From the IMG/VR virus record IMGVR_UViG_3300031576_000194, positions 1-35,774 of that record: a DNA stretch of 35,774 bases. One strand, written 5' to 3'. The DNA comes from a virus. Every line of letters starts with the position of its first letter. The first letter of the stretch is position 1. The position numbers were made by a program, and so were the translations under genes. The notes beneath the pieces were generated by a model, which was given only the letters and a program-made list of their open reading frames with translations, was not told where the DNA came from and did not search any database. Below are positions 17,132 to 21,134 of this stretch, piece by piece.

Positions 17132-17598
17132 CGTCTCACCATCGCCTTGAACAGCTCACGAATCTCGCCGCGCTTCGCATCCAGGTGCATCTTGAGTGTC
17201 TTCCATGTGCCTCGATGGTAGCGCGCCTGCGGCCCACGCCCACCCACCGACTCATGACCGATGACCCACGGCGCATAGACAATGTTAGTGCCGACTGTAC
17301 CGATTATATCATTGCCGATACTTTTCACTTGACTTGTCAGTGTACGACCGAGTGTACCGGTGCGACGATAGGGCACTCTGCCCTGCGATACCAGCATCAT
17401 CACATAGCGGCGCTGCTTGTCGCTGACGAAGCGCATTGGGCGACGCGAAGGCGCTGGATACCTTGCCGCTTCGCGTTGAACGAGTGCTGTGGCCTGTGTC
17501 ATGGCCTTGACCAAATCGGCTTGCAAGGATGTATCCATGCGCTTGAGCTTGGCACGCAGCTCTTTAATACCGCGAATCTCAATACCGATGTTAGCCAC
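17113..17598 (-). CDS. HK97 gp10-like head-tail joining protein, 161 aa
   Basis: GTG at 17598 (CGGAAG upstream). The opening IGIEIRGIKELRAKLKRMDTS and the block QATALVQREAARYPAP match the HK97-gp10/tail-component family, as do the strands RRTGTLGRTLTSQV and GTVGTNIVYAPWVIGHESVGG. These proteins act at the head-tail interface. The start overlaps the stop of the LAGLIDADG endonuclease gene by 8 bases. The usual place of gp10-like genes is after the connector; here it precedes the protease, an unusual order. Confidence 0.8.
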   Translation of the reverse strand: MANIGIEIRGIKELRAKLKRMDTSLQADLVKAMTQATALVQREAARYPAPSRRPMRFVSDKQRRYVMMLVSQGRVPYRRTGTLGRTLTSQVKSIGNDIIGTVGTNIVYAPWVIGHESVGGRGPQARYHRGTWKTLKMHLDAKRGEIRELFKAMVRRWISKK

Positions 17599-18088
17599 AA
17601 TACTTCCGCACCTCAGACAATTGTTTCTTCAAATCAAGTACGTAATCCCGATATCCATTTAGATGGCCGCCTATCAGGATGATCCTAGCCGCTTGACGCC
17701 AGATTTCATAATCACGTTGCTTCTTGAGTCGAAGTGGATAACGATCCAAGATAGGAATGATGATATGGCAAATACTTCCTATATCACTGATACACCATTC
17801 AATTTGAGGGTTCTTGTTTCCACGTGCTGGGGTTCTATAAAAGCATCCACAGCGCAATAAACCCAACTCTTGTTGCAAAAAACTTGATTCATCATCTCTC
17901 ATCTTGATTCTGAGTCTGCAGGTAATATTCATAGTATTCTTTGTGGCACTAAAGGTAAAACATCCCTCGCCATCAACCAATCCACTGAACCAACCACACC
18001 ATATCGGATCGGGATCAAAGTCAATTCCAAGCGCTAATTGAAATTGCTCAGGCACAGTATTACTCCAGTCAATGCCGACATTTGCCAT
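17591..18088 (-). CDS. Free-standing LAGLIDADG homing endonuclease, 165 aa
   Basis: Contains a clear first LAGLIDADG helix, WFSGLVDGEGCF, in which the Asp/Glu pair would bind metal. A beta-sheet follows (MNITCRLRIKMRDDESSF), then the C-terminal helix pattern (LDRYPLRLKKQRDYEIWRQAA) of the single-motif family that acts as homodimers. It cuts long asymmetric DNA sites to spread itself. ATG at 18088 with GGAAG upstream. The first residues MANVGID resemble the MANIGIE start of the next gene, possibly a duplicated 5' end. Confidence 0.88.
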   Translation of the reverse strand: MANVGIDWSNTVPEQFQLALGIDFDPDPIWCGWFSGLVDGEGCFTFSATKNTMNITCRLRIKMRDDESSFLQQELGLLRCGCFYRTPARGNKNPQIEWCISDIGSICHIIIPILDRYPLRLKKQRDYEIWRQAARIILIGGHLNGYRDYVLDLKKQLSEVRKYCG

Positions 18089-18195: not shown

Positions 18196-18414
18196 TCAAT
18201 ACAATCCATGTTCTTCATTATGGCATTCCTCGCAAAGCACCTGTAGATCATCTAAATCTTCATCACCTAATCTTGCATATGTTTTATGATGAACATGCAA
18301 TATTCCTCTAAAACCACATCGTTCACAACGATAATGTGCGAGTTTTAATGCTCGTTTTCGCATTACCCGCCAATCTCCCGATTCAAGATATTCTTCATAG
18401 AATGCGCTAGTCAT
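18196..18414 (-). CDS. HNH endonuclease, 72 aa
   Basis: The start at 18414 overlaps the stop of the head-morphogenesis gene (ATGA). It contains YRCERCGFRG then LHVHHKTYARLGDEDLDDLQVLCEECHNEEH, a complete HNH zinc-finger nuclease: two CxxC pairs, the HH catalytic pair and the C-terminal His. At 72 residues it is compact. It may be a free-standing homing nuclease or, as in many HK97-like phages, a helper of packaging near the terminase and head genes. Its position beside an intein and a LAGLIDADG gene favours mobility. Confidence 0.88.
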   Translation of the reverse strand: MTSAFYEEYLESGDWRVMRKRALKLAHYRCERCGFRGILHVHHKTYARLGDEDLDDLQVLCEECHNEEHGLY

Positions 18415-19814
18415 GTGATGGTTTCCTGTATCACTGGACTGAGCCAGCAGCGGCAATTCTTGACGATAACACCGTTGCAGGTGTATAATCCATAGGGATC
18501 AACCTGGAGATCATACACATGACCAGAAAAATCGAATTGTCTAACCTGAACAACCTGCTCGAACGATATATCGCGGGTGAATCTGAGAATAAAATTGCGC
18601 GTGTGGCCGGAATCAATCGGTGGACTTTTCGCCGCAGGCTGCTTGAGGCTGATATTCAACCCAGAAGTCGATCCGATGCTGAGCGACTCAAGTGGCGAAA
18701 CATGACTCTCCAACAGCGCGTGGCCCAAGTTGCTGCTGCTCACGCCTCCATGAGAGGTCGCCCCGTGTCTCTCAAGAATCGTCTGGCTCAGGCCATTGGC
18801 AAAGAGCGCGCCCTGTCCCATGCTGTCCCTATTGAATTCTATCTCCAGCGCGCTTTGTTTAAGCATGGATTGCCAGCCACTCTGCAAAAGGCCATTGGGC
18901 CATATAATGTTGATCTGGCCCTTAATAAACTGTCCATCGCCATAGAAATCTTCGGCGGCAATTGGCACACTTCGGCGAGTCACAAGCGGCGACACTTCAA
19001 GCGAATGAAATATTTGCTCAATCAGGGCTGGACGGTTGTCGTCATTTGGATTGATGCACGCCGCCACCCCCTCGATGTTGGCGCAACACGCCACTTGATC
19101 GCCCTGGCTGACGAGATTCGCAGAAATCCATCCCTGCCGCCCCAGTATCGGGTGATTCTGGGTAACGGTCAATTGGCGTCCCGAAGCAAGTCTTATCTCA
19201 ATACATCGACCGACATAAAACGATTGAGCTGCGCCTGTGATGAATCCGGGCGCAACTATTTCGTTGCCCGGTAATATGCAGCGTACATGCGCTGGTGGCT
19301 CGGTATCGCCACTTGGAAAGGGATCGCCGATTGCCACGACTTGACCGCTATTGATGTTGCATGGCCCACTGGGATCGCCATTATCCACTAATGAATCTTC
19401 TGCGGTATTCCACTGCATCTGCTCGATCACGCCCGCTGCGCGCCATGCCTCGATATTTCCCTGTGCGAAAGCCCGCGTCACCTCCGTGACGCCGATCATC
19501 TCGGCGCGCACCGGCCCAAACATCGGCATCAAGGTTTCCGTTAATGCGCTCAATGGATCACCACTGGCCGTCCACGCCGACAAGCTCTCTCGCAGAAACG
19601 TTCGGCTCGTGTCGTTGATAGCCGTCACCAGGTCGAACGTATAACGCTGCGCCCAGTCGCGTACAGCCTCGTTAACAAGCGCGAAATCAATGTCAATTTC
19701 AGCCAACGGCACAAGCGACAAGCCACCCGCCGCACCGTCGATACCGGCATCGACCACCAGTGGATAGAGCAGGTCGTAAAGCGCCTCGTTCTCGCCAGTC
19801 CAATTGATTGCCAT
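18411..19814 (-). CDS. Head morphogenesis protein (Mu gpF / SPP1 gp7-like) containing an intein, 467 aa precursor
   Basis: Residues 1-178 and 454-467 are the host protein (extein). They include the helical VTEVTRAFAQGNIEAWRAAGVIEQMQWNTAED and the signature PPAHVR|CRCWLSPV, the Cys/His motif that ends minor head proteins of this family. Between HVR and CRCW sits an intein (codons 179-453). After splicing the mature protein would be 192 residues. Its role is in capsid assembly and DNA ejection with the portal. ATG at 19814 with AGGAG upstream. It overlaps the HNH gene at its end. An antisense endonuclease gene lies wholly inside the intein. Confidence 0.88.
   Translation of the reverse strand: MAINWTGENEALYDLLYPLVVDAGIDGAAGGLSLVPLAEIDIDFALVNEAVRDWAQRYTFDLVTAINDTSRTFLRESLSAWTASGDPLSALTETLMPMFGPVRAEMIGVTEVTRAFAQGNIEAWRAAGVIEQMQWNTAEDSLVDNGDPSGPCNINSGQVVAIGDPFPSGDTEPPAHVRCILPGNEIVAPGFITGAAQSFYVGRCIEIRLASGRQLTVTQNHPILGRQGWISANLVSQGDQVACCANIEGVAACINPNDDNRPALIEQIFHSLEVSPLVTRRSVPIAAEDFYGDGQFIKGQINIIWPNGLLQSGWQSMLKQSALEIEFNRDSMGQGALFANGLSQTILERHGATSHGGVSSSNLGHALLESHVSPLESLSIGSTSGLNISLKQPAAKSPPIDSGHTRNFILRFTRDISFEQVVQVRQFDFSGHVYDLQVDPYGLYTCNGVIVKNCRCWLSPVIQETIT
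18460..18489 (+). promoter_or_regulatory. Antisense promoter inside the intein C-terminal block
   Basis: TTGACG (18460-18465), an 18-base spacer and a perfect TATAAT (18484-18489) on the plus strand. It is formed from the codons for LYTCNGVIVKN of the intein. It lies 30 bases upstream of the endonuclease start, with GGAG at 18506-18509. Confidence 0.65.
18519..19274 (+). CDS. HTH plus Vsr/DUF559-like homing endonuclease encoded antisense within the intein, 251 aa
   Basis: ATG at 18519 with GGAG nine bases upstream and a consensus promoter. Residues about 12-45 (LLERYIAGESENKIARVAG, INRWTFRRRLLEADI) form a resolvase-type helix-turn-helix. Residues about 105-180 hold a PD-(D/E)xK fold of the Vsr/DUF559 type: IEFYLQRALFKHGLP, YNVDLAL (Asp132), AIEIFGGNWH (Glu143, His150), HKRRHFKRMKYLLNQGWTVVVI. 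Related EDxHD endonucleases are known as homing enzymes of inteins and introns. The gene is codon-for-codon in register with the intein on the other strand: its ATG pairs with a His CAT codon and its TAA with Leu TTA. All 28 Leu and 17 Ser codons avoid TTA, CTA and TCA, which would break the intein. Confidence 0.87.
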   Translation: MTRKIELSNLNNLLERYIAGESENKIARVAGINRWTFRRRLLEADIQPRSRSDAERLKWRNMTLQQRVAQVAAAHASMRGRPVSLKNRLAQAIGKERALSHAVPIEFYLQRALFKHGLPATLQKAIGPYNVDLALNKLSIAIEIFGGNWHTSASHKRRHFKRMKYLLNQGWTVVVIWIDARRHPLDVGATRHLIALADEIRRNPSLPPQYRVILGNGQLASRSKSYLNTSTDIKRLSCACDESGRNYFVAR

Positions 19815-19827
19815 TTTCTCCTGCGGA

Positions 19828-20145
19828 TCAGTCCTCGCAGTCGATCAACCAATCGCACGAATCCACGCCGCCGCCCACGAGCGGGAACTCTAGGATCGCC
19901 TCGTACTGCTTGCCGACCGTCATCCCGCTGCGCAACACGCTCTTCGTCGTGATGACCTGAGCTGCGATGCTGTTCGCGCCGCTGGTCGTGGTCGCTGTGA
20001 CGTCCATCTTCTCCGGATGCTCCAGGATCGTCAGCGTCGGCGCGCCGGTTGGCGCGCCCCATGAGGCGGGGATCGTCGCATTGAACGGCCGCGCGAATCC
20101 TTTGCCGATGGGTATGGGTGATTCGATGGCGCGTCGTTCGCTCAT
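19828..20145 (-). CDS. Head fibre-like / virion protein, 105 aa
   Basis: The start overlaps the preceding stop (ATGA at 20142-20145). The opening IGKGFARPFNATIPASWGAPTGAPTLTILEHP and the beta-rich remainder (VTATTTSGANSIAAQVITTKSVLRSG) suggest a small head-attached protein. The last residues (VDSCDWLIDCED) are acidic. Name by resemblance and location only. Confidence 0.55.
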   Translation of the reverse strand: MSERRAIESPIPIGKGFARPFNATIPASWGAPTGAPTLTILEHPEKMDVTATTTSGANSIAAQVITTKSVLRSGMTVGKQYEAILEFPLVGGGVDSCDWLIDCED

Positions 20146-21134
20146 TCGCGTTTATCCGGTAAGGTCAAATTCGTGCTGCGTGTATTGAACGATAAATCCA
20201 CACGGCGCTTCTTGAACGTTAACGTTAGACTGCGATCTCGGAATGTCAATTCCAATGGCTTGACCAGCGCTGCATCAGGCCCGATCGCAATGAACGGGAT
20301 GCGATAGGCTTCGGCAATGGCCCTGGGCAGTAGGCTGAGCCGTCTTTCGTCGATTGCCCGTCGCAGTTCGATGGGCAGTTCGACGAGTAGTTCAGGTGGG
20401 ACGGTAACATGATAGGCAGCATAGGCTTCAGCCGCGGCGCGCGCCAGTCCGCGTGGTAACTCGGCCAGCCCGCGCCGCAGTTCTTCGGGCAGATCACCCA
20501 CACCGCCGAAGGTGACTGGGATCGAGTAGGCTTCTTTAGCAGCACGCGGCGCTGAACGCGGTGTGTCGAGTAGGAATCGTCGTAGTTCATCGGGTAACTC
20601 GGCGACATCTGCGCCAGTAAACAGCGGCCACAGCCAGTAAGCACCTGTGCTGGAACGCGGTAGAAAGAGCCGTCGCGCATCAATCGTTTGCCGCAGCTCG
20701 AGTGGTAATTCGATGGCGGCTTCGGCCGGAATTGGCAGCGCGATGAGGCCATACGCTGTCGCACTACCGCGCACATCTCGACGTGGGACGACGAGCAGCA
20801 CGCGGCCCGGCGGCGTATCAAGTTCGACGACATCTGCGCCGGTGAACGTCGCGGCGATTCGGTAGGCATCGCTGGCCGCATATCGTTCTCGACGCGGGAT
20901 GACCAGAACATCGCGACGCAACTCCTGCGGCAGATCGCCCACGCCAACGAATGTCGCGGCAATCTCGTAAGCACTGAAGCCGGCGCGCCGTTCGCGACGC
21001 GGATCGCCGATGGCGGTGCGGCCCGGCGGCGGCGCTTCGGCAGCGACATCCGGCGGTGGCGGCGCTGGAAAGCGCCAATGCCAAGCCGCTGCATCTTTGC
21101 GCCGCCGCTTTTGCCAGAATAGATAGTCCGACAC
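20142..21134 (-). CDS. Repeat protein of ~45-residue units, 330 aa
   Basis: A chain of about six degenerate repeats with the pattern (D/E)LPxELRRxLxxxPRxxRxAAxAYxIxxTFxG. Examples are GDLPQELRRDVLVIPRRERYAA, AELPDELRRFLLDTPRSAPRAA and GDLPEELRRGLAELPRGLARAA. The N-terminus is basic then Pro-rich (WRFPAPPPPDVAAEAPPPG), and the C-terminus is strand-forming (LELTFRDRSLTLTFKKRRVDLSF). I do not recognise a family. Coupled to neighbours by overlap among head genes, it is probably a virion protein such as a head fibre. Units differ in sequence, so the duplication is old. Confidence 0.65.
   Translation of the reverse strand: MSDYLFWQKRRRKDAAAWHWRFPAPPPPDVAAEAPPPGRTAIGDPRRERRAGFSAYEIAATFVGVGDLPQELRRDVLVIPRRERYAASDAYRIAATFTGADVVELDTPPGRVLLVVPRRDVRGSATAYGLIALPIPAEAAIELPLELRQTIDARRLFLPRSSTGAYWLWPLFTGADVAELPDELRRFLLDTPRSAPRAAKEAYSIPVTFGGVGDLPEELRRGLAELPRGLARAAAEAYAAYHVTVPPELLVELPIELRRAIDERRLSLLPRAIAEAYRIPFIAIGPDAALVKPLELTFRDRSLTLTFKKRRVDLSFNTRSTNLTLPDKRE

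Follow-up and report, generated by a model that had tools for sequence, protein, structure and literature searches.

A phage head-gene intein with a putative homing nuclease encoded on its opposite strand

Here, we analysed a stretch of viral DNA of 35,774 nucleotides (positions 1 to 35,774 of IMG/VR virus record IMGVR_UViG_3300031576_000194, hereafter the window), whose MuF-type head morphogenesis gene is interrupted by an intein that carries, on its opposite strand and exactly in codon register, a gene for a putative nuclease (Table 1). We propose that this is a mobile intein in which splicing and putative homing nuclease are separate genes on the two strands of one DNA segment, a composite reading that includes a mechanism and to which we assign a probability of roughly 0.88. 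According to this proposal, the head gene would be translated through the intein, which would then be spliced out by its Hint ends (approximately residues 1–67 and 241–275), while the middle would act as a tolerated linker whose sole requirement in the sense frame is the lack of stop codons. From a sigma70-like promoter, Shine-Dalgarno sequence and ATG of its own, all located inside splicing blocks F and G, the antisense gene would yield an HTH plus Vsr/EDxHD-type nuclease, which probably cleaves MuF alleles without the intein at their conserved HPN/CRC codons (the slash marks the junction). Repair from an intein-bearing allele would in turn copy intein and nuclease gene together. The two-strand layout had been claimed in an initial annotation made from the sequence alone; its coordinates for both genes proved exact and its codon register was confirmed, while the expression signals within the splicing blocks and the occurrence of the layout in more than 100 phage records go beyond it.

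Table 1 Features of the intein-interrupted head gene and of the antisense gene (positions in the window)
Feature	Position	Strand	Basis
MuF-type head morphogenesis gene, 467-aa precursor, intein-interrupted	18411–19814	−	PHROG head protein and head morphogenesis matches
Intein, 275 aa (825 bp), C1 to N275, then C+1 of the MuF CRC motif	18456–19280	−	Pfam and PDB matches, invariant residues
Hint N-terminal half, blocks A and B, residues ~1–67	19080–19280	−	pLDDT mostly >90; sense-type codon conservation
Hint C-terminal half, blocks F and G, residues ~241–275	18456–18560	−	pLDDT 88–98; codon conservation, dN/dS
Intein middle, mostly disordered sense linker	18560–19080	−	pLDDT <50 at residues 131–220 apart from short gaps
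Sigma70-like promoter of antisense gene, TTGACG - 18 nt - TATAAT, in blocks G/F	18460–18489	+	11/12 matches
Shine-Dalgarno sequence GGAG, facing block F D-L-Q codons	18506–18509	+	9 nt upstream of ATG
Antisense ORF, putative homing endonuclease, 251 aa, ATG start	18519–19274	+	codon-in-register with sense frame; constrained at ~18519–19166
HTH DNA-binding domain, helices 10–18, 23–30 and 34–43	18546–18647	+	HTH_7/HTH_23 in relatives; Z 5–6 to HTH chains
Vsr/EDxHD-type nuclease core, residues ~101–202	18819–19126	+	invariant Y129, D132, E143, G146, G147, W149, H150, R162

On the sense strand, the insert has the features of a class 1 Hint intein. It begins with CILPG and ends with VIVKN/CRC, it matches the Pfam family Intein_splicing above the cut-off (E = 1e-9), and solved inteins were matched in a profile search of the PDB. 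Four residues are invariant across the aligned inteins (n = 35), namely C1 as nucleophile of the N-terminal junction in block A, T40 and H43 of the block B TxxH motif, and the C-terminal N275; the annotation had described the splicing blocks as intact. The Hint fold was recognised by Pfam and by Foldseek with the sense model, for which the hits with E < 0.001 were inteins, PhoVMA and Mtu RecA among them; in this model, residues 1–66 and 241–275 mostly reach a pLDDT above 88. The residue preceding the C-terminal Asn is Lys instead of His in the window, and non-His residues, which can slow splicing, are common at this position in the set. The annotation had found no endonuclease in the sense frame, and likewise no endonuclease family was matched by this frame in our Pfam search. 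An endonuclease in the sense-frame middle was thus rejected, given also that the model is disordered there. Instead of lying in the splicing frame, as in a canonical bifunctional intein, the nuclease is encoded on the opposite strand, and the middle, in its sense reading, is a passive tolerated linker with the constraint on the other strand.

The antisense protein was modelled by AF2 with a pLDDT of 91.6 as an N-terminal HTH followed by a Vsr-like core. Foldseek ranked the homing endonuclease I-Bth0305I first (E = 6.6e-4), with Vsr also among the first hits, and VIA-align gave Z-scores of 10.4 for Vsr, 9.4 for the endonuclease-like protein 3hrl and 9.1 for I-Bth0305I. Vsr and I-Bth0305I were also matched in the PDB by a profile of the antisense family; with the antisense protein as single sequence, the PDB search returned nothing useful. 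PHROG yielded a ‘homing endonuclease’ match, and Pfam matched the families MTES_1575 REase (E = 3.6e-7) and DUF559 (E = 7e-4), both below the gathering score for this single sequence. MTES_1575 was matched by 36 of 49 antisense relatives (best E = 2e-9), and free-standing proteins of the DUF559 family resemble the antisense core (41% over 75 aa). Across 49 sequences, G20 is invariant besides the core residues listed in Table 1, and E106 is nearly so. The antisense protein thus has a confidently modelled Vsr-like catalytic fold, and acidic and His active-site residues of the kind found in EDxHD/Vsr-like homing endonucleases are conserved, their one-to-one correspondence to EDxHD being putative; at two aligned conserved positions, the crystal sequence of I-Bth0305I has Ala. 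The assignment to an HTH plus Vsr/DUF559-like nuclease, for which the annotation had named the absence of a nuclease fold as a refuting result, is borne out by profile and structure searches, and we infer that the product is an active homing nuclease. The annotated coverage of about 92% of the intein is correct for the extent of the ORF, but overstates the constraint, which was found only at antisense residues ~1–215; the tail facing splicing blocks A and B is simply open.

Relatives of both products are widespread. A tblastn search of 50,697 phage records matched the sense intein in 110 records and the antisense protein in 115, the matched phages being associated with Salmonella, Pseudomonas, Gordonia, Escherichia, Vibrio, Haemophilus/Aggregatibacter, Idiomarinaceae, Rhodococcus, Pantoea and other hosts. 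In IMG/VR, the antisense protein matched 63 loci, and the minus frame was open across the whole match in all 59 that were tabulated, as it was over the antisense gene in 16 named phages. Further relatives occur in a PVC-group MAG, in which both frames were read directly, and on a Candidatus Promineifilum plasmid. No relatives were detected when viral contigs were scanned with just the sense intein, and a profile scan of viral contigs returned already-known loci only. In the aligned sense products, the insertion site is near-constant within MuF (HPN/C...intein...HN/CRC). The database records examined annotate the head gene and not the nuclease, one of them with the label ‘minor head protein with inserted intein’. 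Two relatives, L076 (REQ3) and L077 (fEg-Eco06), are shorter and have lost or changed the WH of the EIFGGNWH motif; they are possibly degenerating nucleases.

Head genes with and without the intein could be compared in the Guernseyvirinae. A head-gene query from this group matched 504 records, of which 70 were covered to at least 80%, while many others aligned in two pieces separated by a gap of intein size. The junctions are seamless, reading HPN/CRS or HFG/CRS without the intein and HPN/[intein]/CRS with it. In STP-1 and W5_chr3, the inteins are 99.4% identical while the exteins share 88.1/85.9% and the last 20 N-extein codons are identical; in ZCSE7 and Pantoea AH01, the inteins are 80.9% identical and the exteins 64.1/70.5%. 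Precise empty alleles together with an intein identity above that of the exteins demonstrate that the element moves. Homing with co-conversion would predict such an identity gap, which does not by itself prove the nuclease to be the driver. A viral-contig scan with the window's own N-extein found no relatives, so that no empty counterpart of its head gene could be demonstrated. Two intein-less Guernseyvirinae alleles (L088 and L090) have HFG/C in place of HPN/C at the insertion site, and HFG/C alleles may be resistant to homing.

Could a real and expressed nuclease serve a purpose other than homing? As specificity for the MuF site would let the nuclease shut out rival phages as well, and as an antisense promoter could damp the head gene, exclusion of competitors or regulation of the head gene via antisense transcription come into question. 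We consider such a role unlikely, since homing predicts what is seen, namely a strict association with an intein at a single conserved site, precise presence or absence and an intein identity far above that of the exteins, and exclusion would be its by-product. Even less probable is an intein that does not splice and persists as a tolerated insert of the mature head protein, a fate proposed for the ShiLan domain (see below), leaving the nuclease as the sole function. The disordered middle of the sense model would suit such an insert; however, C1, T40/H43 of block B, N275 and C+1 are conserved, the fold matches that of solved inteins, and sense selection on the Hint ends is strong, with a dN/dS of 0.03 at the C end in the Guernseyvirinae. 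We retain the reading as a mobile intein that would be spliced from the head protein and is probably spread by its antisense nuclease.

An antisense frame in codon register can mirror the conservation of the sense frame, and likeness among relatives alone therefore proves nothing. Hence, we determined conservation by codon position at 70 loci, using an alignment built in the sense frame. In exteins and Hint ends, sense position 1 is more conserved than position 3 (P = 2e-13, 2e-8 and 5e-5). The order is reversed in the intein middle (residues 81–241; position 3 above position 1, P = 9e-13), a pattern expected of conserved antisense codons. Pairwise counts of single changes among eight Guernseyvirinae alleles gave 923 changes synonymous only in the antisense frame against 194 synonymous only in the sense frame for the middle, compared to 120 and 1884, respectively, for the N-extein. 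In the same group, dN/dS for residues 126–245 is 0.16 in the antisense and 1.02 in the sense frame. The conservation of both frames, for which the annotation had suggested dN/dS per strand as a check, is accordingly partitioned along the intein: as the sense model is ordered at the ends and the antisense model is confident, the two constraints lie largely end to end, with sense constraint at both ends and antisense constraint in the middle.

Stop codons are depleted in both frames. In the shared stretch of the 70 loci, 331 sense stops were expected from the codon usage of each phage, given the antisense Leu/Ser codons, and none was seen; in the antisense frame, there were 6 in 15,154 codons against ~458 expected, and not the neutral rate of antisense stops that the annotation had named as a further refuting result. 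These counts are not fully independent as the loci share ancestry, although most pairs are just 25–50% identical in protein. For the window alone, the lack of TTA, CTA and TCA among 45 Leu/Ser codons has P = 7e-4 under the phage's own Leu/Ser usage. An open frame by chance was rejected on the basis of the stop counts over the 70 loci. In two loci (L003 and L012), the nuclease frame is intact except for a lone in-frame nonsense codon while the sense intein is open, which fits nuclease decay as in the decay phase of the homing cycle.

Besides the end of the splicing domain, the last ~24 intein codons also hold the start codon, Shine-Dalgarno sequence and sigma70-like promoter of the nuclease gene. 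Its ATG pairs with the His codon in the block F sequence ‘GHVYDL’; at this position, ATG is found in 40 of 67 loci and GTG or TTG in a further 10, and in many of the remaining loci a start codon occurs a few triplets downstream. Facing the sense D-L-Q codons, the antisense strand has GGAG(G), and the block F Leu is encoded by CTC in 38 of 53 loci, compared to 10.6 expected from usage in the same genes (P < 5e-5); synonymous sense codons of block F are thus held for the antisense Shine-Dalgarno sequence. Similarly, the Ile-Ile of block G is encoded by ATT-ATA, which reads TATAAT on the antisense strand, in 16 of 19 loci (1.1 expected, P < 5e-5). An extended -10 element, TGNTATAAT, is present on the antisense strand in 11 of these ATT-ATA loci; the window and several relatives with VKN or SSN ends have TTGACN-17/18-TATAAT instead. 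Promoter scores of 11–12 of 12 were obtained for 9 of 67 loci and for none of 1340 shuffles, sigma70-like promoters being clear in only part of the loci. Transcription of the antisense gene would proceed from this promoter; beyond one weak hit within the ORF, a terminator was not found. The notion of a phantom antisense ORF, whose open frame mirrors a conserved sense protein and resembles a nuclease by chance, can draw on the mirroring of conservation by in-register frames, on the frequency of long antisense ORFs in GC-rich DNA and on the single-sequence Pfam score below the cut-off, yet is refuted by codon-position conservation, synonymous-change counts and dN/dS, which show the middle to be selected as antisense and not as sense protein, and is further opposed by the confident antisense model next to a disordered sense middle, the match of free-standing DUF559 proteins and the biased start, Shine-Dalgarno and promoter codons, so that we regard it as the least probable explanation of all.

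How does this mobile two-strand intein relate to known systems? Canonical bifunctional inteins such as PI-SceI and PI-PfuI contain a LAGLIDADG or HNH domain in frame within one polypeptide. The present element resembles them in that a Hint domain and a homing nuclease, putative here, share one mobile segment in a conserved host-gene motif, but its nuclease is a separate gene on the opposite strand with its own expression signals. In its modelled catalytic fold, the antisense protein resembles Vsr, which repairs T:G mismatches, and the EDxHD homing endonuclease I-Bth0305I (PDB 3r3p), which is intron-borne and multi-domain; unlike the antisense protein, neither is encoded antisense to its carrier. 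Dassa et al., cited in PMC3229294, are said to have described, in 2009, fractured genes with split inteins and a free-standing EDxHD nuclease ORF located between the split halves without sharing DNA with them. Intein and Vsr-like EDxHD nuclease are separate genes in phage DNA in both cases; here, however, the intein is contiguous and almost fully overlapped by the antisense gene. The nearest system in the literature searched is the hidden HNH nuclease of ShiLan-type elements, which is encoded on the same strand, in another frame of an insert that the host frame also reads through and that has no splicing domain (Arsenault, Gosselin, Gogarten 2025, PMC11855218). The element shares with it the concealment of a nuclease out of frame within such an open insert, but differs in that its nuclease is Vsr-like in fold, on the opposite strand, in codon register and within an intein. 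Inteins in the capsid morphogenesis gene of Guernseyvirinae have been reported for phage Snoke (PMC6776784), the UPWr_S phages (PMC8425127) and vKMB36 (PMC11162368); they interrupt the same gene and probably belong to the same family, and an antisense nuclease is not mentioned in these papers.

The annotation knew of no described example of this arrangement, and we found none in the open-licence literature, searched for antisense intein nucleases and for inteins of this gene, so a report outside of it is possible. The parts, a Hint intein and an EDxHD/Vsr-like homing nuclease, are of known kinds, and their layout is undescribed in the literature searched. We consider it likely that the element represents an undescribed class of two-strand elements, which combine splicing and homing in codon register, in which selection is split lengthwise and splicing blocks double as promoter, ribosome binding site and start codon, and which are old and widespread in phages of Gordonia, Mycobacterium, Salmonella, Pseudomonas, Helicobacter and others. 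Mobile inteins are usually explained by a nuclease domain in frame inside the splicing domain, both sharing the fate of one polypeptide. As a gene of its own, the nuclease could have its own timing and dose, yet remains inseparable from the intein. The element is also a natural case of long-lived antisense coding in codon register, in which selection can be measured per strand and is visible in synonymous codon choice. For inteins regarded as ‘endonuclease-less’, the other strand is worth checking, and the relatives supply numerous candidate homing nucleases of the Vsr-like kind, directed at a single conserved motif in the phage head gene.

Several neighbouring genes of the window were noted. 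Upstream of the head gene, a 330-aa ORF with diverged repeats (...LPEELRR...) at 20142–21134 (−) had no Pfam or PHROG match. Directly downstream, an HNH endonuclease gene is located at 18196–18414 (−), the likely ATG of which overlaps the head-gene stop codon; an HNH gene also follows right after the intein-less MuF gene of Escherichia phage fPoEco01 (L090). The head-gene cluster further contains a LAGLIDADG_1 endonuclease ORF at 17591–18088 (−; Pfam E = 4e-15), so that three different homing-type nucleases are encoded within a 1.7-kb part of the window.
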